Below are positions 1,411-32,750 of a stretch of 64,000 nucleotides of DNA, one piece after another; the stretch's first letter is position 1; every line of letters starts with the position of its first letter. The notes below the pieces were generated by a model. It was not told where the DNA came from. It saw only the letters and a program-made list of their open reading frames with translations, and did no database searches. Both the position numbers and the translations under genes were made by a program. Origin of the DNA: Cohaesibacter gelatinilyticus (GTDB lineage: Bacteria; Pseudomonadota; Alphaproteobacteria; Rhizobiales; Cohaesibacteraceae); the NCBI RefSeq assembly GCF_900215605.1, contig NZ_OBEL01000006.1:124001-188000 (forward strand), written 5' to 3'.

Positions 1411-3255
1411 GTGAGTGCAGGCGCTGAAAGAATAAAAGATCTGGTTCAACCGGCAATAGACAGGGTGACAAATGTTGCCGGTCGGCGGCAGGCGGCTATC
1501 CCTGACCCGAAACCGGGCGGATATCGCAATGACGTGCCACCGGGAGACTGGGAGCCGGACGAACTGGGCTTGCCGCCAGATTGTCCGGTAGAGCCTTTGG
1601 GCATGGATGGCGATATCATCTATATGATCGATGCCATGGGGCAATTGGCAGCCGTTACTCCATCAAGCTTTGGACGCGGATATATTCAGCGCTTGTTCGC
1701 CAACAGGATCAACTATGCCTATTGGGCATGGCCGCAAAAGACCCTGAAAAGCAATGAGATTAAGAACTGGAATGGTGAACTAATCAAGGAAACCTTCTAT
1801 ACAGCTGCGGCGAATAAAGGCCTATGGAATGCTGTCGACAAGGTGCGCGGACTGGGAGCCTGGAAGGGTGAAGATGGCAAGCTGATCCTTCATTGTGGGG
1901 ATTGCCTTTGGATGAATGGTGAGCGGCACGAGACCGGCGAGGTGGGGGAGTTTTTCTATCCTCGACGGCCGCCCATCGGCAAACCGTGGCATGAAGAAAT
2001 CACTCTAGAGAACAATCCGGCCATCGATCTGTTTCGAAGCTTGAAGACCTGGAACTGGCAACGGCCAGACGTGGATCCATTTCTGTTTCTCGGCTGGCTT
2101 GGCGCTGCCATGATTGGCGGTGCCCTGGTGTGGCGTCCGTCCGTGTTTCTCGTTGGTGATATGGCTGTTGGCAAATCTACACTGCATGGTTTGATGGCCG
2201 AAATTCTGGGAAGCACTCTTGTCAAGTCGGCCGATGCATCTGCAGCCGGGATTTACTCGCGGGTTGGTAGCGGCTCTTTGCCTGTCGCCATTGATGAACT
2301 GGAAGCCACGGCCGATAACCGGAAAGTGTCGGCTGTTGTCGATCTGGCGCGTCTTGCCGCTAGCGGCGCTGCGAAGCTACGCGGGGCACAAGATCATTCC
2401 TCTGCTGAATTCAATGCCAGATCCTGCTTTCTCTTTTCTGCCATCAATCCACCACCAATGACACCGGCGGACAAATCCAGAATGGCGTTTCTCTCCATTG
2501 GCAAGCTCGACTTCAACAAAGCCAAGGCTCCTCCCCCATTGCCCCCACATGCGGGTGCGAAAATCCTGAGAAGACTGGCCGACCAGTGGGCACGTTTTGA
2601 TGAGACCTGGGACGCATATAGCCAAGTCCTCAAACAGGGTGGTCATGCAGGACGAGGGCAAGACACGTTTGGCACTTTGCTGGCATGCGCCCATTTGATG
2701 CTGGGGGATGACGGACTGGAAGACCTTGGCTATCGATCTGACGATTTGTCCGGTTGGTCTGAGCTTTTGGCTGCTGCAAACCTGAGTGAAAAAGAAACAT
2801 CCAGTGAGAACTGGAGAGATTGCCTTGAGCATTTGCTGACCAGCCGCGTGAACACCTGGCGCAATGGCAAACAGCATTCAATTGGAGCTGTGCTGGAAGC
2901 ATATCGAGATAGCAACAACACTTTCATGTCACTGAGCGAAACAAGAGAGATGCTGGCGCAAGTTGATCTTGGCTTTTTGCCAAAGGAAAAACGCAAAAAG
3001 ACAGACCAGTATGGCCAGCCCTATCTGGACCCCAACAGTGAATACCTTGCTATTCCAAACAAAGGCCCTGCCCTCAACGAACTGTTTGAAGGCGAGCGCT
3101 GGGCCAAAGAGGTTTGGGTCGATGCGCTACGGCAAGGGCCATCTGAGGTCATCAATTTCAGCAAAGAAGTCAACAAGATGAAGATTGGCGGCATTTCAAG
3201 GCGATGTACGCTCGTCAATCTGACCGCCTTTGATCAGCTATCGGAGGAAGGATGA
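1411..3255 (+). CDS. Phage primase/helicase-like P-loop ATPase
   Basis: A 614-residue protein with a GTG start preceded by GAGGTG (1401-1406). A Walker A motif GDMAVGKST lies at about residues 249-257 and a Walker B-like strand ending in IDELE at 294-298, followed by a sensor-type Asn in FSAINPPPM. The 240 residues before the ATPase contain no obvious metal-binding primase motif (HCGDC near 161 is the only Cys/His cluster). The overall plan is that of prophage SF3/DUF927-like helicases that work with a separate initiator. Probable role: unwinding at the phage origin. The motif-rich non-coding stretch directly downstream could be that origin. Confident as a phage ATPase, less so for the exact helicase class. 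Confidence 0.75.
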   Translation: MSAGAERIKDLVQPAIDRVTNVAGRRQAAIPDPKPGGYRNDVPPGDWEPDELGLPPDCPVEPLGMDGDIIYMIDAMGQLAAVTPSSFGRGYIQRLFANRINYAYWAWPQKTLKSNEIKNWNGELIKETFYTAAANKGLWNAVDKVRGLGAWKGEDGKLILHCGDCLWMNGERHETGEVGEFFYPRRPPIGKPWHEEITLENNPAIDLFRSLKTWNWQRPDVDPFLFLGWLGAAMIGGALVWRPSVFLVGDMAVGKSTLHGLMAEILGSTLVKSADASAAGIYSRVGSGSLPVAIDELEATADNRKVSAVVDLARLAASGAAKLRGAQDHSSAEFNARSCFLFSAINPPPMTPADKSRMAFLSIGKLDFNKAKAPPPLPPHAGAKILRRLADQWARFDETWDAYSQVLKQGGHAGRGQDTFGTLLACAHLMLGDDGLEDLGYRSDDLSGWSELLAAANLSEKETSSENWRDCLEHLLTSRVNTWRNGKQHSIGAVLEAYRDSNNTFMSLSETREMLAQVDLGFLPKEKRKKTDQYGQPYLDPNSEYLAIPNKGPALNELFEGERWAKEVWVDALRQGPSEVINFSKEVNKMKIGGISRRCTLVNLTAFDQLSEEG

Positions 3256-3822
3256 AACCCATCTAGTTCCTACTCCCCGACCCTCTTAGCCAAAAAATGA
3301 CGCCCCATGGAGATAACCAATGATCTCTAAAAAATTTATCTCTGTTTCCCAGACCCTTAACTGTCCAGATGGACCGCGCCACGTCACGGCTTTTGCAAGG
3401 GAGCAAAAGCCCTGCCGGGCTAGCGGACAGTTGACCAGGAGTGAACGGCCGTATGGTCAAACTTGCTGCGGAGCTGTCCCTGCTTCCTGACGGGTCCGGG
3501 GGCATTGGGGACACTAAAAGTTCCACGGGGGACACCTTGGGGACACCTAGTGTCCCCAAATTCAACAAATGAAATCAGACGATTAGTCCAAAAGTTCCAC
3601 GGGGACACCCAAATAGCCACACGTATGCGCTCGCGCACATACATACATATATACAGGTGTCCCTAGTGGAACTGTGGAACTATTCTTATAAACATATGAT
3701 TTCATTAATTTAATTTGGGGACACCAAAGGGGACACCAGCAAATATTGGTGGAACCCTTGTGTAAATCAGCGCTCTTTGCAGCTCTGCTCGTTTGAATAA
3801 AATATTGAGGTTTATCAAATAG
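3256..3822. other. 567-bp non-coding region with repeat motifs; candidate phage origin or packaging region
   Basis: No credible gene. The first half contains an inverted repeat AACTGTCC (3359-3366) / GGACAGTT (3425-3432) that encloses a perfect 9-bp hairpin GGCTTTTGC / GCAAAAGCC (3388-3396 and 3403-3411, loop AAGGGA). The second half contains the GGGGACAC/AGTTCCAC array described separately, then an AT-rich stretch at 3682-3716. Position between a replication ATPase and the terminase genes fits an origin, a pac/cos region, or both. Confidence 0.6.
3507..3755. repeat. Array of GGGGACAC and AGTTCCAC motifs (iteron-like)
   Basis: GGGGACAC occurs at 3507-3514, 3528-3535, 3539-3546, 3601-3608, 3717-3724 and 3729-3736, and inverted at 3550-3557 (with a 7/8 copy at 3657-3664). 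Copies 3539-3546 and 3550-3557 form a perfect palindrome around CTA. A second motif AGTTCCAC occurs at 3519-3526 and 3593-3600 and inverted as GTGGAACT at 3666-3673 and 3674-3681, with a GTGGAAC remnant at 3749-3755. In two places the composite AGTTCCAC(G)GGGGACACC is intact. Such clustered short repeats in both orientations are typical of binding arrays for an initiator, small terminase or repressor. Confidence 0.75.
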
Positions 3823-4452
3823 ATGAGTAGCGATGGCAATCAAATGGATCTGCTTCAGACAGATGAAAATGACGGGTATGAAGACGCGCCGACCGCGATT
3901 TTCCCGCCAACTCGGACAGAAAAGCGCGGTCCCGGTCGACCAAAAGGCGCAAAAAACAAGAAAACCGCCACCATTGAGAAGCTGTATCACTCCAAAGGCT
4001 ACCGAGATCCGCTGTTATTTCAGGGTGAGATCATGTCCAGTCATCCGCTGGATCTGCATCGTTGGTTCATCTTCATGCAGGCAGAAGCCCAAGGCGTAAA
4101 GCGAGACAAGGCGATCCAAGCTTTCAAGGATGGCAGGCTCAATGGCATCCCGAACATTGCCGAGATCGTGGCGATGCAGACCAAAGTTGCCGATCAGCTC
4201 ACGCCCTACCTCTACGGTAAGAAGCCTGTCCAGGAAGACAATGACGATGAAGGCAAGCTTCCAGTGCTGATGATCGATCTGGGAGAGGATAGCGTCACAG
4301 CAAATCAACCAGGTGAAGATGTGTTTTCAATCGGGATGCCAGAACCAAGCGAAAGCGAGGAAAATCAATCACTTAGCGAAGATCAATCAAACAAGTCTCA
4401 TGACACCATGTCTCATGAAACAGCTAACCTCATGAAAGATAAGGGAGAATAG
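3823..4452 (+). CDS. Terminase small subunit-like DNA-binding protein
   Basis: A 209-residue protein just upstream of the large terminase. Residues 35-48 (RGPGRPKGAKNKKT) are an AT-hook-like basic stretch typical of the start of some phage small terminases, followed by a YRDPL helix block. The last 70 residues are acidic and Ser-rich (GEDSVTANQPGED, SESEENQSLSED), likely disordered. Small terminases recognise the packaging site and load the large subunit. The call rests on position and on the GPGRPKG-x-KNK start, not on a full domain match. The ATG at 3823 has GAGG 12 bp upstream; a second ATG at 3844 is possible. The repeat array just upstream would be a natural binding target. Confidence 0.65.
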   Translation: MSSDGNQMDLLQTDENDGYEDAPTAIFPPTRTEKRGPGRPKGAKNKKTATIEKLYHSKGYRDPLLFQGEIMSSHPLDLHRWFIFMQAEAQGVKRDKAIQAFKDGRLNGIPNIAEIVAMQTKVADQLTPYLYGKKPVQEDNDDEGKLPVLMIDLGEDSVTANQPGEDVFSIGMPEPSESEENQSLSEDQSNKSHDTMSHETANLMKDKGE

Positions 4453-6941: not shown

Positions 6942-8546
6942 ATGGCAGGCAGCAAGCGGAAACCCAAGAATGAACCTGCACAAAAGAAGATTGCACAAGA
7001 AAGCTCATCGCTGAAAAGGCTGAAGCGTTTCAAGGCTATCGCTGAAAAAGAATTTCAGACCATGAAGCCTTTGCTGGATGAAGCATTTGACTATGCGATC
7101 CCCTTTCGCAAAGGATCATCTGATGGTACCGGCCAGAAGCGCGTCAACAAGGCTTTTGACCAAACTGCAATTGTTGGGGCCTTTCGTTTTGCCGGTCGTC
7201 TTTGGCAAGATTTTGTTTCCGAGGAAATGTTCACGCTTAAACCGGGCGATATCCTGCCAGACGATATCAAGAACCAACTCCGGCCAGAACTGGAAAAATA
7301 CACAACCATTCTGACCGCCATGTGTTCCAATGGTGAATTCGACCTGGCATTTCATGAAATGGGATTGGATTTGTCAGCCTCGACCGGCGCAATGTATGTG
7401 CAGCAAGGTGACAAAGATCTTCCAGCTCGTTTCCTGACAGTACCGATTGATGAGCTTCGTCTGCTTTGTGGGCCTCACGGGGATGTCATGGGCGTCTTCT
7501 GGGACCGGAAATGGCCGGTTTGGCATATTGAGGAGGAATTCGAGGACGAAAAATCCCGCTTTGGTGAAAAGCTGCAGGACAAGATCCAGAACAAACCAGA
7601 AGATGGAATCACTCTGACGGTTGCCACGCTTTACGACAAGAAATCCAAAGGCTGGATCACCTCGACATGGGTTGATTGCGATGACGTGATTTTCCGAGAG
7701 GAAAAGACCAGGACTAATCCTTGGATCACCCCGCGTTATTTCCGTGTTCCTGGCGAAACCTATGGTCGCGGTCCTGTCATGCTGGCGATGCCAAGCATCA
7801 AGACACTGAACACAGCACAAAGTCTGTCACTCCAATCAGCCGCTATTGCGCTCCTTGGGATCTGGACCGCCGTAGATGATGGTGTCTTCAATCCGGACAT
7901 GTCCGATATCGAGCCGGGCGCAATCTGGACCGTGGCCCGAAATGGTGGTGTTTTAGGGCCATCCATCCAGCGTATGCAGGATCCGCGCATCGATGTCAGC
8001 AATATCGTGCTGAACGATCTTCGCATGGCCGTGCAATCAACCATGATGGATCAAAGCTTGCCGCCAGACGGGGCATCAGTGCGATCAGCAACCGAGATCC
8101 TTGAGCGCGTCAAGCGATTGGCGTCTGATCATACAGGGGCTTTTGGTCGCCTGGTTTATGAGATCATCGTTCCGCTTGCCCGTCGTTTGCTGGAAATCGC
8201 TTCGAACCTCAATCTGATCGAATCCGGATTGAACATCGATCAGCTTCTTGTGCAGGTCAAAGTCTCGTCACCTATCGCAACATCCCGTGCAGCCCAACGC
8301 ATGGAAAAAATCGTCCAGTTTGTCGAGATATGCCTGGCTATCCTGCAAGAGCGGGCAAGCAATGTGGCCAAGCTCGAAGATGCTTTGGAACATATCGGCC
8401 ATGAGCTGGGCGTACCGTCCAGATTTGTTGTGACTGCTGAAGAGCGCGCAGAAATTCAGAAGCGGGAGCAAGAAATGGCTGCTATGGCGGCTGCAGCTCA
8501 AGCCATGGGCGAAAATGTGTCAGGTGTTGAGGGAGTGGCGGCATGA
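6942..8546 (+). CDS. Portal protein (podovirus head-to-tail connector)
   Basis: A 534-residue protein of the head-tail connector family (T7 gp8-like). Visible family features: the N-terminal helical LKRFKAIAEKEFQTMKPLLDEAFDY, the GQKRVNKAFDQTAI block with RFAGRLWQDF soon after, a mid-protein YGRGPVMLAMPSIKTLN segment that fits the channel-wall helix, and an Ala-rich C-terminus. Portals form a dodecamer at one capsid vertex through which DNA passes and to which the tail attaches. Length matches the family. It begins 3 bp after the preceding gene and overlaps the next by 4 bp. Confidence 0.93.
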   Translation: MAGSKRKPKNEPAQKKIAQESSSLKRLKRFKAIAEKEFQTMKPLLDEAFDYAIPFRKGSSDGTGQKRVNKAFDQTAIVGAFRFAGRLWQDFVSEEMFTLKPGDILPDDIKNQLRPELEKYTTILTAMCSNGEFDLAFHEMGLDLSASTGAMYVQQGDKDLPARFLTVPIDELRLLCGPHGDVMGVFWDRKWPVWHIEEEFEDEKSRFGEKLQDKIQNKPEDGITLTVATLYDKKSKGWITSTWVDCDDVIFREEKTRTNPWITPRYFRVPGETYGRGPVMLAMPSIKTLNTAQSLSLQSAAIALLGIWTAVDDGVFNPDMSDIEPGAIWTVARNGGVLGPSIQRMQDPRIDVSNIVLNDLRMAVQSTMMDQSLPPDGASVRSATEILERVKRLASDHTGAFGRLVYEIIVPLARRLLEIASNLNLIESGLNIDQLLVQVKVSSPIATSRAAQRMEKIVQFVEICLAILQERASNVAKLEDALEHIGHELGVPSRFVVTAEERAEIQKREQEMAAMAAAAQAMGENVSGVEGVAA

Positions 8547-8953
8547 ACCAGACAGCATTGGGAATTCAGGATCTGATCGCCGGTCTCGGCACAGAAGCGC
8601 ATTGGGGCAATCTGGAAGGCTTGATTGATCAATTCAGTCATCCAAGCCGCAAGGATGCATCTGCAGAAGAACAAGCCAGGCGCGAAGCTGAACGCCACAA
8701 GTGGCTCGCAAATTTGAAATCAGTTTTCGAGACCGAAGCTGGGCAGCACGTCTTGAGACAGTTCGTGCAAACCACGCTTCAAAGGCCCTCTGTGACCGTC
8801 TCACCAGAAACCATGCATTCCTTAAGCAGTGACCAGGTGGCGATGATCAGCACTTATCGAGAAGGCCAAAATTCCATCATTCGCACGATTTTGAAAGATC
8901 TGGCTGAAGCCGGATATGACCCGTCCAACAATAAGGAAAAACCCAATGCTTAA
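8543..8953 (+). CDS. Phage head-region protein of unknown function
   Basis: A 136-residue, mostly helical and charged protein between portal and scaffold, coupled to the portal by an ATGA overlap. It overlaps the scaffold start by 8 bp. I recognise no domain; helix-rich segments (AEEQARREAERHKWL) suggest an accessory scaffold or chaperone-like role, which is inference from position alone. Confidence 0.75.
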   Translation: MNQTALGIQDLIAGLGTEAHWGNLEGLIDQFSHPSRKDASAEEQARREAERHKWLANLKSVFETEAGQHVLRQFVQTTLQRPSVTVSPETMHSLSSDQVAMISTYREGQNSIIRTILKDLAEAGYDPSNNKEKPNA

Positions 8954-9782
8954 ATCTGCTTTGCTCACTCCACGCTCCATAGCCTGGCTTGCTTCAGCTC
9001 CCTTTGGCCCTCAGATTGCCTTCGCTCCGGAAGATGGTACCGGCACTGGTGATGGTGAAGGGGCCGGAGATGAAAACAATCAGAACGAAAATAGCCAGGA
9101 CAACAGTCCCTATCGCCCTGAAGGACTGGCAGAAGACTATCACGGTGAGAATGACCAAGAGACTATTGACCGCCTGGTTGCCAGTCTAAATGCATCCAAT
9201 CCGCAATTGCCGGAAGATGTGAGCGGCTATGACTTCAAACCTGATGACGAGCTGAAAAGCTATTTCGGTGATACTGACGATCCTCTATTGAATTCCGCCA
9301 AAGCAGCCGCGCTCGAATGCGGCATCACTCCGGACAAGTTTCAGGACTTCATCAATAAAACCTTCAAAGGTCCTGTTGCTGAAGGCCTGTTAACCCCGGC
9401 ATATGATCCAAAGAAGGAATTTGACACCCTTGCTGGCTATCTGAAGACAGATCCCCAAGGTGCTGAAAAAGCCGCAAATGATGCCCTGGCCATTGCCGAG
9501 AATATGGGCAAAAATCTGGGACTTCCCGAAAGTGCACAAGGCTTCATGTCCGGCATGAGCGAGATTGCCGACGGCATCATGATCATTCGCGCAATTGAAA
9601 ATATGGCACAGGAAAAAGGCGTTGCTCTTGGTGAAACAGCCGATGGCTCTACTGCCTTCTTCTCAAAGGAAGAGCTGGCCAGAATGGGGGATGATCCCCG
9701 ATTGAAACCGAGTTCATCAAAATATGACGCAAGCGTCGAGAAGAAATATAACGCTAGCTATCAGCATCATTATCCAGGCTAA
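8946..9782 (+). CDS. Capsid scaffolding/assembly protein
   Basis: A 278-residue acidic protein between portal and capsid genes, where T7-like phages encode the scaffold (gp9-like). After a hydrophobic start comes a strongly acidic Gly/Glu/Asn-rich stretch (GTGTGDGEGAGDENNQNEN), then PYRPEGLAEDYHG, a motif common in capsid assembly proteins, and helical repeats to the end. The ATG at 8946 has AAGGA 8 bp upstream; the frame reaches 8916 but without support. Scaffolds guide capsid polymerisation and then leave the head. An inserted unit separates this gene from the capsid gene. Confidence 0.8.
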   Translation: MLKSALLTPRSIAWLASAPFGPQIAFAPEDGTGTGDGEGAGDENNQNENSQDNSPYRPEGLAEDYHGENDQETIDRLVASLNASNPQLPEDVSGYDFKPDDELKSYFGDTDDPLLNSAKAAALECGITPDKFQDFINKTFKGPVAEGLLTPAYDPKKEFDTLAGYLKTDPQGAEKAANDALAIAENMGKNLGLPESAQGFMSGMSEIADGIMIIRAIENMAQEKGVALGETADGSTAFFSKEELARMGDDPRLKPSSSKYDASVEKKYNASYQHHYPG

Positions 9783-9812
9783 TCGGAACTTTGTTCCTTG
9801 GTCACCAAACGA

Positions 9813-9853
9813 GGGGACTGTTACGGCATAGTGCGAAATGACCCCCTAAGGCC
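9813..9853 (+). repeat. Left terminal inverted repeat of the passenger unit
   Basis: 41 bp matching the reverse complement of 11503-11543 at 35 positions; mismatches are scattered (positions 5, 11, 15, 28, 31 and 40), so the ends have diverged since insertion or are naturally imperfect. Confidence 0.75.
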
Positions 9854-10201
9854 TGACGGATCGCAACCTTAAAAATTTGTCGTTTGAGAAATACTCAAAT
9901 GACAGCTCTGAGTCCATTTTGCATGATGTTGCACGATGTTCGAATGTCGGCTTCGATAGTTGATCTAGGTTCATACAATCGAGTGTTTTGAGAGGTTTGT
10001 TCTTGAGAACGAGCTCTGAAACATGAGAATGCATCCGTTCTCGACATTTGTTTGGCTGTGCTTCACGGGAGTTGTTTGAGCTTTGTCATTTATCTCAAGG
10101 TTCGGAACCGCAGCTGAATAGATTTTGCGAAAAGTCACATTTGAAGAGAGCGTGGAGCGCAACTCAATGCGCTCCTTGCCTTATTCCGGAGAAGGCTCGA
10201 T
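9854..10201. other. Non-coding 3' flank of the passenger gene
   Basis: Lies between the left repeat and the stop of the leftward secreted-protein gene. It holds no supportable gene. A perfect 7-bp hairpin GGAGCGC (10154-10160) / GCGCTCC (10169-10175) lies 27 bp past that stop and could end its transcript, but no T-run follows. Confidence 0.4.
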
Positions 10202-11296
10202 TTACTTGATCTTGAAGCAAATGACCTCAACACGAAGGCTAAGATTTGGATCAGGATCCGTGTGTAAGTCTAACACCCAATGTCCGCTCTTGGATGTCCT
10301 GAAATAGGCATTGTCTCCCGAGTTTCCCAATCTTCCTTGTAAACCCCCAACAGTACAAACTGTTTTATCTGCTTTTACCGGAAGAATGTGCTGTTTCTCT
10401 GTGTGGTATCTTTTTCGGTGAACAATTTCTACCGATAGCCCTTTGATACGCTCATTCAAAGCCTGATCGGCCATCTCGGTAACTTGAGTTAGATTTTTAA
10501 TGCTCATTTTTAAGTCGGTGATTTCCGAGTTCAGTCTCAGCACTTCCGCTGTCGGTGCCGTTGGCTCAGTCAACTCAGTAAAGTAAACTTGTACTGGCCC
10601 GGCGGTAGTGAACATGTTTACCTGTCCCCAGTCTTGCACTTTGTAGTCGCCGCCAGCTAGCGAAACCGTCAATGGATCATTTCTTGTGCAGCTGAGGTTA
10701 ATTGCACCTGTTGAAATTGCTACTGGGGTCTTGGCGGAAGCAATGCCACCTCCAGCAATCACTTCGGAACAAACGAATCCGCGGACCTCGTAGCCCATAT
10801 AAGAAACTTTTCCAGGGTTGGTATATCTAAGTCCGACGGCCACCGCTTGATTATTCGGTGTAATTTTAACGTCCACTTTAAGTCCATCTTTGTTCAGTGC
10901 TTTGCAATCGTTCCAAGCTCGGACGGCTTCTCCATACAGAGAGCGAGACTCTTCGTACAAATCAGCACTGCTTTCAGCTAACTCCTTATTGGTTTTGCAC
11001 CACTGAAGTAGGTCGGATGAAGTCTTGGTTGTGTTGAAGTTTGCTTCACCACCTCCATATCCTAGAACCTCCACACTAATGTCGGCAAGTGTTTCGGCAT
11101 TCATACTTGAAAACTTTTTGTGGCAGTGGTTGTGGTACTTTGTAGCGATGGATGCTCGGGCAGATTTCTTAATCGTTATGTTTGTAATGCCATGTGCCAA
11201 AATTGCATCACAAGTTGCAGATAAAGATGGTTGCGCGGTAAAAAGAACTGCTGCAGAAAGAGCAGTTACCCTCCAGTATTTTTTAAACAAAAGCAT
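10202..11296 (-). CDS. Secreted protein of unknown function carried by the inserted unit
   Basis: A 364-residue protein with a clear Sec signal peptide (KKYWR, hydrophobic core, cleavage near SLSA at residues 24-27). The mature part starts with CDAILAHGI and has Cys residues spaced for disulfides, a helical LQWCKTNKELAESSADLYEES block, a beta-rich middle (KVSYMGYEVRGFVCSEV), a coiled-coil-like stretch near residues 255-285 (LRLNSEITDLKMSIKNLTQ) and a beta-rich C-terminal domain ending HWVLDLHTDPD. I do not recognise the family. The start has GAGGAAA directly upstream and a well-formed promoter. Opposite orientation and more AT-rich sequence than the phage late genes mark it as a foreign moron, likely expressed in the lysogen. 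Confidence 0.8.
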   Translation of the reverse strand: MLLFKKYWRVTALSAAVLFTAQPSLSATCDAILAHGITNITIKKSARASIATKYHNHCHKKFSSMNAETLADISVEVLGYGGGEANFNTTKTSSDLLQWCKTNKELAESSADLYEESRSLYGEAVRAWNDCKALNKDGLKVDVKITPNNQAVAVGLRYTNPGKVSYMGYEVRGFVCSEVIAGGGIASAKTPVAISTGAINLSCTRNDPLTVSLAGGDYKVQDWGQVNMFTTAGPVQVYFTELTEPTAPTAEVLRLNSEITDLKMSIKNLTQVTEMADQALNERIKGLSVEIVHRKRYHTEKQHILPVKADKTVCTVGGLQGRLGNSGDNAYFRTSKSGHWVLDLHTDPDPNLSLRVEVICFKIK

Positions 11297-11329
11297 TTTC
11301 CTCTATATAATTTTTGATTGTTTTTATTT

Positions 11330-11358
11330 ATTATACAACTTTCTATCGTTTACTTCAA
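11330..11358 (-). promoter_or_regulatory. Sigma70-type promoter of the secreted-protein gene
   Basis: On the minus strand TTGAAG (11358-11353), 17 bp, TATAAT (11335-11330). The likely start of transcription is near 11323, 27 bp before the ATG at 11296. The -10 is a consensus match and the spacing is ideal, so expression should not depend on phage late transcription. Confidence 0.65.
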
Positions 11359-11708
11359 ATCTCCCATAAACTGATTTGCTGAAACTCGTGTAGTAAGCCC
11401 GCTGAATTGGACTTTCTTCTTAATAATTTTAGCTTTTTGTGAGACGACACCGCAGCAGTCATCGAAAACAGAATTGCGAACGTCTCAAAAGTCCGCAGTG
11501 CCGACCTTAGGGTGTTATTTCGCACTATTCCGCAACAGACCCCAACGTCGCTGGGGATGTAGGTAGATCTTGCAGCAGGCCTGCCATCGGTTGACCAATC
11601 CATGAGGCGGTTAGCGTTGAGTTCATGCCAGAGCTCAATGCGCCGCTTTTCTCTTGTCCGCAGTCGGCTCTGTCTCTGGCGAGATAAAACTCGCAATCAG
11701 AAGGCTGA
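11359..11708. other. Non-coding stretch upstream of the capsid gene
   Basis: Contains the right terminal repeat (11503-11543) and 165 bp of sequence before the capsid gene. Short frames here show no recognisable protein. The part after 11543 should hold the original scaffold-capsid spacer and the capsid leader. Confidence 0.4.
11503..11543 (-). repeat. Right terminal inverted repeat of the passenger unit
   Basis: Reverse complement matches 9813-9853 at 35 of 41 positions. The outer end is GGGG on both sides. Confidence 0.75.
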
Positions 11709-11711
11709 ATG

Positions 11712-12617
11712 ATGAGCAACGACGTCCCAAATTGGTTCAAGACCCAATATAACGACAAGGTCCGTCAAAAATTCCAAGCCAAGGGATTTATGATGAAGTC
11801 GACCGTGACCTCGGAAACAAAGATTGAAGGGTCAAAGGCGATATTCCGTATTATGGGAAAAAGCCAGGCCCATAAGAAAAAACGTGGCCAGGCAGCCCGA
11901 AAGAACAACTCCCAGAAGAAAACAGTCGAAGCACATCTGGAGACCTGGGAATTCTTCGACACCTGTGAAACCTATGATGTCTCGCGCATGGGACCTGGTG
12001 AAAAGGAAAATCTGACAACTTCTGGCGCCATGGCTCTTGGTCGCGGTGTGGATCACGCCATTTTTGACGCTGGCGACAAGCTTTCCAGTACAAATGCTGG
12101 CACCGGTGCCGGTGTAAAGCCCCTTCTCGACGCAGATGGTCGTCCGGGCATGATTGGCGGGAACAACAAAGACTTTGTCCTTGATCTGCTTTTGATGATG
12201 AATACGGCGCTTCAAAATGCGGATGTGCCATGGGATGGCAATGTGTATTGTCCGCTGCCGTCTTTGATCTGGAACCAGTGCTTAGCCTACAAGCAGTTCA
12301 ACAATGCTGATTGGACAGGTGACCAGCTTTCTTTCCTTCGCAATACCGTCTCCAAATTCTGGGGTGGTGTGCACTATTTCCTCGCACCGGATGAATATTT
12401 CACCGAGGTCGAAGAAGGTCATTACGACTTCAACATGTGGCACAAGGAAGCCATGGGCTGGAGCAATAACAAGGATCTGCAAACCATCTGGGATTGGGAA
12501 AATGATTTCGGCCATCACTCCATCCGTATGGAGGTTGAGGGCGCGGAAGCGGGCCTGATGGAAGAAGGTATTGTCCGTTGTCGCGTCAAGATACCAACCG
12601 AAATCACCCTCCAATAA
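11712..12617 (+). CDS. Major capsid protein
   Basis: A 301-residue protein between scaffold and tail-tube genes, the place and size of a podovirus major head protein. It has no HK97-type protease partner. A basic N-terminal third (MGKSQAHKKKRGQAARKN) that would face DNA is followed by GAMALGRGVDHAIFDAGDKL and a beta-rich C-terminus ending GIVRCRVKIPTEITL. Two ATGs stand in tandem (11709 and 11712); I choose the second because AGAAGG (11699-11704) then has a spacing of 7. The call rests on position plus overall resemblance to podovirus capsid proteins; a hit to a characterised capsid would settle it. Confidence 0.75.
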   Translation: MSNDVPNWFKTQYNDKVRQKFQAKGFMMKSTVTSETKIEGSKAIFRIMGKSQAHKKKRGQAARKNNSQKKTVEAHLETWEFFDTCETYDVSRMGPGEKENLTTSGAMALGRGVDHAIFDAGDKLSSTNAGTGAGVKPLLDADGRPGMIGGNNKDFVLDLLLMMNTALQNADVPWDGNVYCPLPSLIWNQCLAYKQFNNADWTGDQLSFLRNTVSKFWGGVHYFLAPDEYFTEVEEGHYDFNMWHKEAMGWSNNKDLQTIWDWENDFGHHSIRMEVEGAEAGLMEEGIVRCRVKIPTEITLQ

Positions 12618-29360: not shown

Positions 29361-32300
29361 TCAATCCTCGGACAGGATCTCCTCGATCCGCTTCTTGGCC
29401 CCGGCAAAATCAAGTTTGCCCGATCCAAGCACTGGCACATCAGAATGGAAGATCTCGGACGGCACCATGAGATCACTGGCCTTGCGAGATTTGGCAAAGG
29501 CAACAAAGGCTGATCGCTGTGCTCCGGGATGATCCGTGATCATCACCAACCGCTCGCCCTTCTTGGGATCGGGAATGGTGGCAACCGCTGAAAGATATCC
29601 CGGCCACAATTCTTCTGCCAAGGCTTCTACGGCAGCCAGAGACACCATCTCACCGCCAATTTTGGCGAACCGCTTGGCCCGGCCACGAATGAAGACAAAA
29701 TCCTCATCATCCACTTCCACGATATCACCAGTATCGTGCCAACCATCGGCAGGTGGCTCCAGCTCACCAGGCTTCTCAGCTCGCAAGTAGCCCGCCATGA
29801 TATTGGCACCTTTCACCATCAAACGGCCACCTTGATCAATTCCCGGCACTTTCTCCAGCTTATAGTCCATACCAGGCATCAGCTTGCCGACAGAACCAAT
29901 GCGATTATACATTGGTGTATTGACCGCCAGGATCGGTGCGGTTTCTGTCACACCATAGCCTTCCAGAATACGCAGACCAAACTTCTCCATATAGATCTGG
30001 CGGGTGGTGGGTTTCACAGGTTCCGCCCCTGCAAAGCAATAACGAAGAGAGCGGAAGTCAAACGGATTTGCTGTGCGGGCATAACCCTGCAAGAAAGTAT
30101 CGGTGCCAAACAGGATGGTTGCATTGCTGCCATAAACCAGCTCCGGGATCTCCTTATAATGCAACGGCGATGGATAAAGATAGAGCGGCACACCGGAGAT
30201 CAGAGGTAGCAAACTTGCCGTGGTCAAACCAAAGGAATGGAAGATTGGCAAGACATTGAAGACCTTGTCTCCGGAATTGAAGTCGATCCGCGCTGCAGCC
30301 TGTGCCGCATTTGACAACATATTGCGATGGGTCAGAACCACACCCTTGGGCGTACCTTCAGAGCCAGAGGTAAAGAGGATCACACCCGCATCATCGGCAG
30401 AGCGCTTCACCTTCGGTGCGCCACGCCCCAGAAAACCCACGGCTTTCTCAAATATACTGAATGTCTCTCGCATTTCATCAACCCAGACGAACTCAACAGC
30501 ACTTGAGACATCCTTGACGATCTGCTCCAAACCGGCCTGCTCAATGAAGGTTTTTGAGCTGACAATGGTCTTCAGTTCTGCAGCCTTACAAGCCGCCATG
30601 ATGTTGGCAGACCCGGCAGTGAAGTTGATCATTGCCGGTACCTTGCCAGCGGATATCAGCCCCAGCATGACAGCAATGGAGCCATTGGCATTTGGCAGCA
30701 TGAAGCCAACATTAGTCTGATCAGAAAAGTCCTGTGCAAAACGATTGGCCAGTACGCGCGCTCCAGTCAGCATGCGCCCATAACTGAGCTTGCCAGTCAA
30801 AGGATCTTCAATGGCAACGCGCCCCATACCAAGCCCCTTGCCGGCCTTGATAACCTTTTCCAGAACCGTGATCTGGGTATTAGTGGTGCGGAATACCAGT
30901 TCAGACATGATCTGATAGAGATCAGCACCTGCCTTTTGGCGTCTTTGTTTGCCGGTCAGACCTTCTTCAATCTGCAATTCCACCGGCTCCAGAATTTTTA
31001 CTTTTACTTTCGGGAATAATTTACGTTTGACCAAGGCCGAGGTCAGACGAGAGAAGTAGCTCCGTTCCAGACCATCAATGCGGATCGGCACAACCTTGGC
31101 TCCGGTCTTGTCCGCAATCATCGCCGCACCATCATAAACCTTCATCAAACGACCGGTGACCGTGATGCGCCCTTCAGGAAAGATCACCAAAGGCTGACCT
31201 GATTGCATGGCTTTGATCATGGTACGCGTCGCCATAGGCTTGGTCGGATCCAAACTCAGAAAATTGCAAAATGACAGGAACGGGCGGGCCCACCAGCGCT
31301 GCGCAATGCCATGATCAACTGCAAAAATCGGTTCTTCATCACCCAAAGCAAGCGCAAGAGAACCATCCAGAAAACTCACATGATTGAGTGCAAGAATGGG
31401 CGCTGGACCAGCTTTGGCCAGATTGTCACGTCCCTCCACTTCCAGACGGAAGAAAACTCGAAAGCCAATCAACAGCAAATCCCGTAAAGGATTGGTTGGC
31501 AGAAAGACAAGCGCCAGAATTGCCACAATGCCATTGGCAACAGCAAGGCCAAGCAAAATATTGGCCAGCGTCAGACCGTAACTCTGACCAAAAGCAACCG
31601 CACCACCAGCAGCTACCATAAAACCGGCATTCAGAACATTGACCGCCGCAATCACCCGGGCGCGATGATCAACTCTCGCCCACGCCTGCACAGCGGTGAA
31701 AGCAGGCACCACCAAGAAGGCAGCAGAGAAAGCAAGGCCGAATAAATCAAACGCTACATGCTGAGACAGACCATGAGAGAAGAAGGTCATCACATCCTTG
31801 GCCACCAGTGGCTCGGTCGCCGCATCAATTGTGAAATAAAGATCCAAACCAAAGCCAGCCATCAGCAGGGCACCAATTGGAGCTGGCAGCAACACAATGC
31901 GTGCACCACACAGCCAGGCGGCAACAGCAGAACCAAGACCAATGGACAGGGCAAAGACCGCAAGATATGCAGTGATCGCCAGTTCATCACCACCCATGAC
32001 CTGTTTGACCATGGTGGGCAAAATGGACAACACGATCGCACCGACCAACCAGAACCAGGAAACGATCAGGCTGGCACGCCAGATATTGCGATCCCCTTTC
32101 AGTTCCTTGAGCAACAACCAGGTCGAGGCAAGAAAGTTGCGATGCACATGCAAACCTGCATCACCCGAACCAGTATCAGGAATGGAGCGGGAAAAGTGCC
32201 ATGCCAAAAAGGCAAAGATCATCATCAAAGGCCCGAAGATGGCAACATTGACGCCACCGACGGATGCCAAGCCTCCAATGATGGTGCCCCCAAGGATCGC

Positions 32301-32750
32301 CACGAAGGTTGCAGCTTCAATCCAGGCGTTGGCACGAGGCAGATCTGATTGTTCAAGATGATCTGGCAGGATGCCATATTTGATAGGGCCAAAGAGTGCA
32401 GAAATTACACCAAACAGAAAGAGTGCCCCCATCATCACCCAAATCGAGGAGAGTGCGAGACCGGCAATGGAAACCGCAGCCGCTCCCATTTCCGCAAGTT
32501 TCAGTTTCTCCGCCATACGGCCTTTGTCATGCTTGTCGGCCAGCTCTCCACCAAGAGCAGAAAATAGTAAAAAGGGCAGCATGAAAATGGCCCCGGCCAA
32601 CGTCACCATGGAAGCAGCTTCCTGAGCACCAAGCTTGGCAAGGATCAAAAAGATCAGAGAATTCTTGAGGAAATTATCATTGAAGGCGGACAGAAATTGC
32701 GTCCAGAACAGAGGCGCAAAGCGGTCCGACTTTAACAAACTAATACGCAT
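29361..32750 (-). CDS. aas: Aas-type fusion: MFS lysophospholipid flippase, PlsC acyltransferase and acyl-ACP synthetase
   Basis: A 1129-residue three-domain protein. Residues 1-410 are a 12-helix major facilitator module (LplT-like); the acyltransferase domain has NHVSFLD near 453 (the HX4D motif) and FPEGRIT about 65 residues later; the C-terminal half is an AMP-forming ligase with FTSGSEGTPKGV near 788, the GYGVTETAP block and a late GRAKR/KIGGE hinge. In E. coli flippase and Aas are separate; the fusion is frequent in alphaproteobacteria. It would take in lyso-phosphatidylethanolamine and re-acylate it. The ATG follows AGAGAGAC. A divergent TetR gene with palindromic sites suggests control. 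Confidence 0.92.
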   Translation of the reverse strand: MRISLLKSDRFAPLFWTQFLSAFNDNFLKNSLIFLILAKLGAQEAASMVTLAGAIFMLPFLLFSALGGELADKHDKGRMAEKLKLAEMGAAAVSIAGLALSSIWVMMGALFLFGVISALFGPIKYGILPDHLEQSDLPRANAWIEAATFVAILGGTIIGGLASVGGVNVAIFGPLMMIFAFLAWHFSRSIPDTGSGDAGLHVHRNFLASTWLLLKELKGDRNIWRASLIVSWFWLVGAIVLSILPTMVKQVMGGDELAITAYLAVFALSIGLGSAVAAWLCGARIVLLPAPIGALLMAGFGLDLYFTIDAATEPLVAKDVMTFFSHGLSQHVAFDLFGLAFSAAFLVVPAFTAVQAWARVDHRARVIAAVNVLNAGFMVAAGGAVAFGQSYGLTLANILLGLAVANGIVAILALVFLPTNPLRDLLLIGFRVFFRLEVEGRDNLAKAGPAPILALNHVSFLDGSLALALGDEEPIFAVDHGIAQRWWARPFLSFCNFLSLDPTKPMATRTMIKAMQSGQPLVIFPEGRITVTGRLMKVYDGAAMIADKTGAKVVPIRIDGLERSYFSRLTSALVKRKLFPKVKVKILEPVELQIEEGLTGKQRRQKAGADLYQIMSELVFRTTNTQITVLEKVIKAGKGLGMGRVAIEDPLTGKLSYGRMLTGARVLANRFAQDFSDQTNVGFMLPNANGSIAVMLGLISAGKVPAMINFTAGSANIMAACKAAELKTIVSSKTFIEQAGLEQIVKDVSSAVEFVWVDEMRETFSIFEKAVGFLGRGAPKVKRSADDAGVILFTSGSEGTPKGVVLTHRNMLSNAAQAAARIDFNSGDKVFNVLPIFHSFGLTTASLLPLISGVPLYLYPSPLHYKEIPELVYGSNATILFGTDTFLQGYARTANPFDFRSLRYCFAGAEPVKPTTRQIYMEKFGLRILEGYGVTETAPILAVNTPMYNRIGSVGKLMPGMDYKLEKVPGIDQGGRLMVKGANIMAGYLRAEKPGELEPPADGWHDTGDIVEVDDEDFVFIRGRAKRFAKIGGEMVSLAAVEALAEELWPGYLSAVATIPDPKKGERLVMITDHPGAQRSAFVAFAKSRKASDLMVPSEIFHSDVPVLGSGKLDFAGAKKRIEEILSED

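Follow-up and report, generated by a model that had tools for sequence, protein, structure and literature searches.

A probable non-autonomous Tn3-family unit at an apparent cargo hotspot between the scaffold and capsid genes of a T7-like prophage in Cohaesibacter gelatinilyticus

The locus and its features

The window, by which we mean the whole stretch of 64,000 nucleotides that was analysed, contains the late region of a T7-like phage with genes for terminase, connector, scaffold, capsid, tail proteins and endolysin. We infer that this phage region is a prophage, since it lies within a bacterial contig of 321 kb and is also entered as a viral contig of 36.8 kb. Just past the phage genes a large gene runs leftward (29361-32750); its product combines MFS, acyltransferase and AMP-binding domains, and the gene probably belongs to the host, marking the border of the prophage. 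The scaffold gene (8916-9782) is 53-56% identical to the gene in the same place in six relatives of the same genus, and the DNA between it and the major capsid gene holds the unit that is the subject of this report. The features of this region are as follows:

8916..9782, plus strand: scaffold gene, left border of the hotspot (Phage_T7_Capsid, E 0.007, below the Pfam cut-off)
9808..9812, no strand: left candidate target-site copy, AACGA (imperfect, 4/5 with the right copy)
9813..11543, no strand: the whole non-autonomous unit of Tn3 family, 1,731 bp, with its single passenger gene
9813..9850, plus strand: left inverted repeat, 38 bp, GGGG...CTAAG (33/38 to the right repeat)
9878..9904, no strand: weak candidate for a resolvase subsite, a palindrome of 27 bp that ends in TGTC...GACA
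10202..11296, minus strand: passenger gene, 364 aa, N-terminal signal peptide, no named family
11330..11358, minus strand: promoter-like TTGAAG-17-TATAAT of the passenger gene
11506..11543, minus strand: right inverted repeat, 38 bp (33/38 to the left repeat)
11544..11548, no strand: right candidate target-site copy, AACGT (imperfect, 4/5 with the left copy)
11590..11708, plus strand: conserved capsid leader with GTTGACC box, hairpin and second hairpin
11709..12617, plus strand: major capsid gene, bounding the hotspot on the right (Phage_capsid_2, 3.8e-57; phrog_3437, 7.7e-38)

A transposase-less unit with Tn3-type ends

The unit has a GC content of 44.2%, against 51.5% in the surrounding phage DNA. 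When positions 9813-9853 and 11503-11543 are compared in inverted orientation they agree at 35 of 41 positions—the figure that the initial annotation had given—and the homologous part is the 38 bp listed above. A chance inverted repeat is ruled out, since only ~3e-6 pairs as good as these ends are expected anywhere in the 64 kb (analytic estimate, equal base frequencies) and the repeat pattern was matched in none of 100 shuffles. The two copies of the candidate 5-bp target-site duplication (AACGA/AACGT) agree at four of five positions. Neither the open reading frames nor the family matches yield a transposase or resolvase gene within the unit, which holds a single plausible gene, and the absence of a transposase that had been read from the sequence thus stands. 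No clear res site, which an element of this kind need not have, was found inside the unit beyond the weak palindrome, an equally good example of which arose in 12 of 200 shuffles, and an Rfam scan of 9780-11760 returned no match.

The kinship of the ends was sought on plasmids with 39-nt queries from each end of the unit, which matched four places in all, two per end. Three of them, two on plasmids of Mesorhizobium and one on a plasmid of Sphingopyxis, have a query coverage of at least 97%, and the fourth is an 18-nt match to an unannotated Halomarina record. All three well-covered matches are ends of transposons in which a Tn3-family transposase is annotated, together with a recombinase gene: the left repeat is 84.2% identical to the repeats of the Mesorhizobium transposons, and the right repeat agrees with one of the repeats of the Sphingopyxis transposon at 82.1% over 39 nt. 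When both ends of each transposon are scored, counting the better of the two window repeats, the 6,278-bp Mesorhizobium transposon (on two plasmids of Mesorhizobium sp. L-2-11) reaches 32/38 and 31/38 and the 4,280-bp transposon on the Sphingopyxis sp. 113P3 plasmid reaches 31/38 and 29/38. Perfect 5-bp target duplications flank both Mesorhizobium copies, and the two distinct TnpA proteins match DDE_Tnp_Tn3 at 1.4e-132 and 4.4e-131. These transposons therefore share with the unit one type of end, at 29-32 of 38 positions, but unlike the unit they carry tnpA and a recombinase gene, and the interiors are not detectably related, as only chance-length matches to the three transposon copies occur outside the repeats. 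Because its repeats match both ends of Tn3 transposons, we regard the unit as a non-autonomous Tn3-family element with a passenger. This lends support to the earlier proposal of a mobile passenger cassette without transposase, for which a search for a transposase with matching ends had been suggested; transposases with such ends are those on the Mesorhizobium and Sphingopyxis plasmids.

The transposons bear as well on a second account of the unit, namely that it is a complete Tn3 transposon that decayed by internal deletion of tnpA and tnpR, with the 364-aa gene as its old passenger. Related transposons do carry more than tnpA and a recombinase gene (one of them, L011, has a transglutaminase-family gene), and the two repeats of the unit are still 33/38 alike. 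Against such decay stand the lack of any transposase or resolvase gene in the unit and the chance-length similarity of its interior to the three transposon copies, and we consider this origin doubtful.

Other copies of the element were looked for widely. The host genome gave no match to the Tn3 transposase family PF01526, and neither there nor in 396 further genomes of the order did a search for the ends (up to three mismatches) reveal another copy, so mobility is deduced from one insertion. A close pattern found the ends in none of the genome_contigs, the patterns used on viral contigs matched the ends or the unit only in the same prophage, and a search of plasmids with the whole unit returned no match.

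As described in the parts of the reports drawn on here (PMC4133298, PMC13367494), the closest known kind of element is the TIME element, which has 38-bp Tn3-type inverted repeats, lacks a transposase and is presumed to be mobilised in trans, all of which it shares with the unit; TIME derivatives of 1.2-3.9 kb carry other genes. On the same partial sources, the unit differs in being larger than a simple TIME (262 bp), in not consisting of two TIME copies as TIME-COMP does—similarity between its ends stops at 39-41 nt, and no longer TIME copies flank it—and in having no recombinase gene of the kind found in TIME-RES. It further differs from TIME in that it is present in a single copy, lies in the head module of a prophage and has repeats like those of alphaproteobacterial Tn3 transposons.

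The passenger and its relatives

The gene and promoter-like site of the unit agree with what had first been described, i.e., one leftward gene with a signal peptide (10202-11296, minus strand, 364 aa) and a TTGAAG-17-TATAAT promoter (11358-11330). Five promoter-like sites occur in the scanned stretch against a mean of 2.4 in shuffles, and hence the promoter match alone is weak. By eye, the N-terminus of the protein has the shape of a cleavable signal peptide: a basic start, a hydrophobic core and small residues ahead of a probable cleavage site around residue 27. Its six cysteines (29, 58, 100, 131, 176 and 203) are invariant in a four-sequence alignment and again in a three-sequence alignment with the Crenothrix relative, and the C-terminal part, past a likely coiled coil, differs among homologues. 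Such a combination of a conserved cysteine-rich N-terminal part with differing C-terminal parts suggests a modular exported protein.

In searches for a family, Pfam gave only DUF5818 (E 0.029, below the cut-off), the best values for PHROGs and the PDB were E 0.02 and E 0.37, and NCBIfam and PADLOC gave no match. The passenger was thus placed in no known exclusion or defence family by PADLOC or NCBIfam, nor by Pfam other than below its cut-off. Relatives are scattered: among 60 related genomes one (G051) holds a relative at 37% identity and another (G034) a weaker one at 23%, a third lies on a Xylophilus plasmid (L013; 30% identity), and a search of 398 genomes of the phylum (own genome included) gave a weak one in G739. 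A further scan, which detects only relatives that have its short peptide patterns, found one in Crenothrix, its second locus (L015) being the G051 contig again. No homologue was found in the 17 relatives of the same genus or in the phage collection, and in viral contigs none besides this prophage. On the small Xylophilus plasmid, the homologue (L013, 3819-6245) adjoins an unannotated ORF that by eye resembles a recombinase, close to umuD and a Y-family polymerase gene.

The initial annotation had suggested looking for homologues beside the same ends, and none were found to have them. At the six homologue loci tested (L005, L006, L013, L015, L016 and L072; some of them short contigs), the best match to ends of the unit's type was 22/38; L016 has one generic GGGG...TAAG string without a partner.

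A junction with changing cargo

The capsid protein was sought in 101 genomes (own and relatives) and found in seven, six of them, own included, of the same genus; since one of these (G010) carries two, the genus gives seven sites. Gene order is kept at the sites, with the connector, a small gene and the scaffold gene before the junction and the capsid gene, a small gene and a tail gene after it. The gaps between scaffold and capsid genes measure 1926 (window), 3536, 4886, 2779, 3573, 132 and 3067 nt. Six of the seven sites hold different low-GC cargo (gaps of 1.9-4.9 kb), and the seventh (L030, 132 nt) is empty; the initial annotation had suggested a search for related phages with an empty site. 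At all six occupied sites the cargo has a GC content of 36-49%, against 51-59% in the flanks. Five viral contigs match the capsid alignment; these are the window prophage and four of the same sites, and they therefore add no independent site.

L028 and L029 are 86-87% identical up to the end of the scaffold gene and again from the leader onward, with differing cargo between, and L030 is 75-78% identical to both of them on both sides and empty. This pattern has the appearance of cargo exchange at a fixed place. Tn3 ends were found on none of the five other cargoes (best 21/38), and no other terminal repeats were detected at their ends (thresholds of 16/20 inverted and 11/12 direct). Since the five other cargoes lack Tn3 ends, the junction is a hotspot for cargo in general, with transposition accounting for the occupant of the window only.

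How the unit came to lie at this site can be asked from its flanks. If the unit and one 5-bp copy are taken away, the window junction up to the leader still measures 70 nt as against 13 nt in the empty site of L030, so the window site is not simply an empty site plus the unit. This excess of 57 nt, together with cargoes that lack transposon ends or other terminal repeats and that are bordered by the conserved scaffold gene and leader, fits a route in which cargo travels by homologous exchange between related phages and the Tn3 unit first jumped into an older cargo or another phage. Against this route, no second phage with this unit was found, and we rate it as less likely than not.

The same sites bear on whether the passenger could be a regular morphogenetic gene of the head module, its repeats being due to chance or serving regulation. 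It does lie inside the head module and breaks no gene. It is, however, oriented leftward and encodes a signal peptide, its repeats match Tn3 transposon ends, and the six related sites hold other cargo or none; together with the lack of a homologue in the same-genus relatives and the phage collection noted above, this led us to reject the passenger as a normal head gene, and we hold this reading to be highly improbable.

Beyond the genus the picture differs. A related capsid is found in 22 of 397 genomes of the order (own included), 16 of them outside the genus. Junctions of 14 of these 16 were examined (G218 and G254 were left out), with starts taken as first start codons, so that some gaps are uncertain by a few hundred nucleotides at most, and with the scaffold assigned by position only in two of the 14 (L067 and L070). 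The gap is ~230 nt or less in 11 of the 14 and longer in three (1704, 468 and 567 nt). Because the junction is short in these 11 sites, the hotspot is established for this genus only. The initial annotation had stated that the unit splits two genes that normally adjoin, without breaking either: neither gene is indeed broken, and the two do adjoin at most of the other-genus sites examined, but within the genus they adjoin at one site of seven, the other six holding cargo.

In the 1.7-kb gap of a site in another genus (L063) lies a 603-aa ORF with a long extra domain (2556-4367, minus strand). By eye, the start of this ORF resembles the small gene downstream of the capsid gene in the window, and PADLOC gave no match; on these grounds this gap was not counted as defence cargo.

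Predicted antiviral functions of the cargo

Judged by family profiles, and as a raw count, four of the five other cargoes are predicted to be antiviral, with matches to known or candidate families. In the L027 cargo, IetA (1e-72) and a partial IetS-like protein (4e-13) are accompanied by IS-like genes of DDE and helix-turn-helix type. The L028 cargo pairs a DUF4747 protein (1.4e-25) with a neighbour of 192 aa that has four hydrophobic segments; PADLOC matched neither of the two, and the assignment of the former comes from Pfam and the literature. In L029 a PD-Lambda-5_A-like protein (4e-12, N-terminal part only) is accompanied by a 319-aa protein without a match and a C5 cytosine methylase (1.5e-115), and in L031 PDC-M55A (3e-36) is found with PDC-M55B (2e-8). 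The remaining cargo (L026, 6656-9733) holds a 783-aa ATPase with weak matches only and no confident family, and a 197-aa neighbour without a match, which we put forward as a candidate antiviral pair.

Two of these loci have further features. L027 (4252-7630; also seen in L075) contains an IS-like unit of 1,151 bp with DDE_3 and winged-helix genes twice, in identical direct copies, and the IS-like unit adjoins the IetS-like gene, which is much shorter than its family profile. L028 has a 203-aa ORF (7267-7878) with, by eye, an NPPY motif like that of DNA methylases and no Pfam match.

The passages drawn on here from two reports (PMC7542560, PMC6426606) link the DUF4747 domain, by weak matches, to RexA and prophage exclusion proteins, and the RexAB-like pairs they describe (of lambda, Sbash, CarolAnn and Butters) resemble the DUF4747 and four-segment pair of L028. 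The likeness, as far as these excerpts go, is that of a relative's cargo and not of the window's, whose protein carries a signal peptide and does not match DUF4747.

Judged by its predicted gene content, the scaffold-capsid junction is an apparent defence hotspot. The closest known kind of locus, going by the portion of a 2022 study drawn on here (PMC9122126), are the P2/P4 hotspots, i.e., loci of ~1-5 kb with high turnover that lie between two conserved phage genes and are rich in antiviral systems. On this partial source, the junction shares with them that a small variable locus with predicted antiviral systems lies between conserved phage genes, and differs from them in its scaffold and capsid genes of a T7-like prophage, its conserved leader on the capsid side and its alphaproteobacterial genus, with an antiviral activity that is predicted. 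Among the literature matches listed, taken as titles and beginnings of abstracts, with subscription literature mostly outside, we found no report that places cargo or defence genes at the head or scaffold junction of a podovirus, nor, within the same scope, of this junction in work on prophage defence hotspots.

The leader of the capsid gene

The right border of the cargo is formed by a leader of ~120 nt that is kept in all seven genus sites, with GTTGACC first and a hairpin last. The 3' arm of this last, second hairpin holds GAAGG immediately before the capsid start. The hairpin covers the likely ribosome-binding site. Across the alignment 93.4% of cells are paired, a value reached in 8 of 500 shuffles, and the covariation score was likewise reached in 8 of 500. 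Only two of 26 pairs are changed on both sides, a count reached in 323 of 500 shuffles, and an RNA role of the leader is therefore not proven. The leader may function as a promoter or as a translation switch at the ribosome site. Either function would explain why cargo upstream is tolerated, leftward genes included.

Proposed mechanism and implications

Taken together, we consider it quite probable that a Tn3-type unit with one passenger sits at a cargo hotspot in a T7-like prophage, where it would have been mobilised in trans and would benefit the lysogen. The unit would have been moved by a Tn3 transposase supplied from another replicon and is one occupant of a genus-level hotspot, in which the cargo of relatives—for the most part predicted antiviral systems—sits between the scaffold stop codon and the capsid leader. 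Insertions there would be tolerated because the leader probably allows expression of the capsid gene regardless of what precedes it. In the lysogen the passenger would be read from its own promoter, and its product may be exported and disulfide-bonded.

That this secreted protein serves the lysogen is a reasonable proposal. The six-cysteine protein would be a lysogenic-conversion factor that most likely benefits the lysogen, perhaps through superinfection exclusion, which is our leading guess. A bolder proposal is that the passenger founds a new exported six-cysteine family of superinfection-exclusion proteins, carried as a one-gene Tn3 cassette in a scaffold-capsid cargo dock of temperate podoviruses that is insulated by the leader and serves the exchange of defence systems; in this full form we think the proposal speculative and unlikely.

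If the framework set out here is right, the scaffold-capsid junction of these temperate podoviruses would be a predictable place in which to seek new antiviral genes, and the secreted 364-aa protein and the L026 ATPase, both without a good known match, would become testable candidates. A one-gene unit of Tn3 type would moreover supply cargo to a phage hotspot, and would thereby link the transposons of plasmids to the cargo that phages carry.
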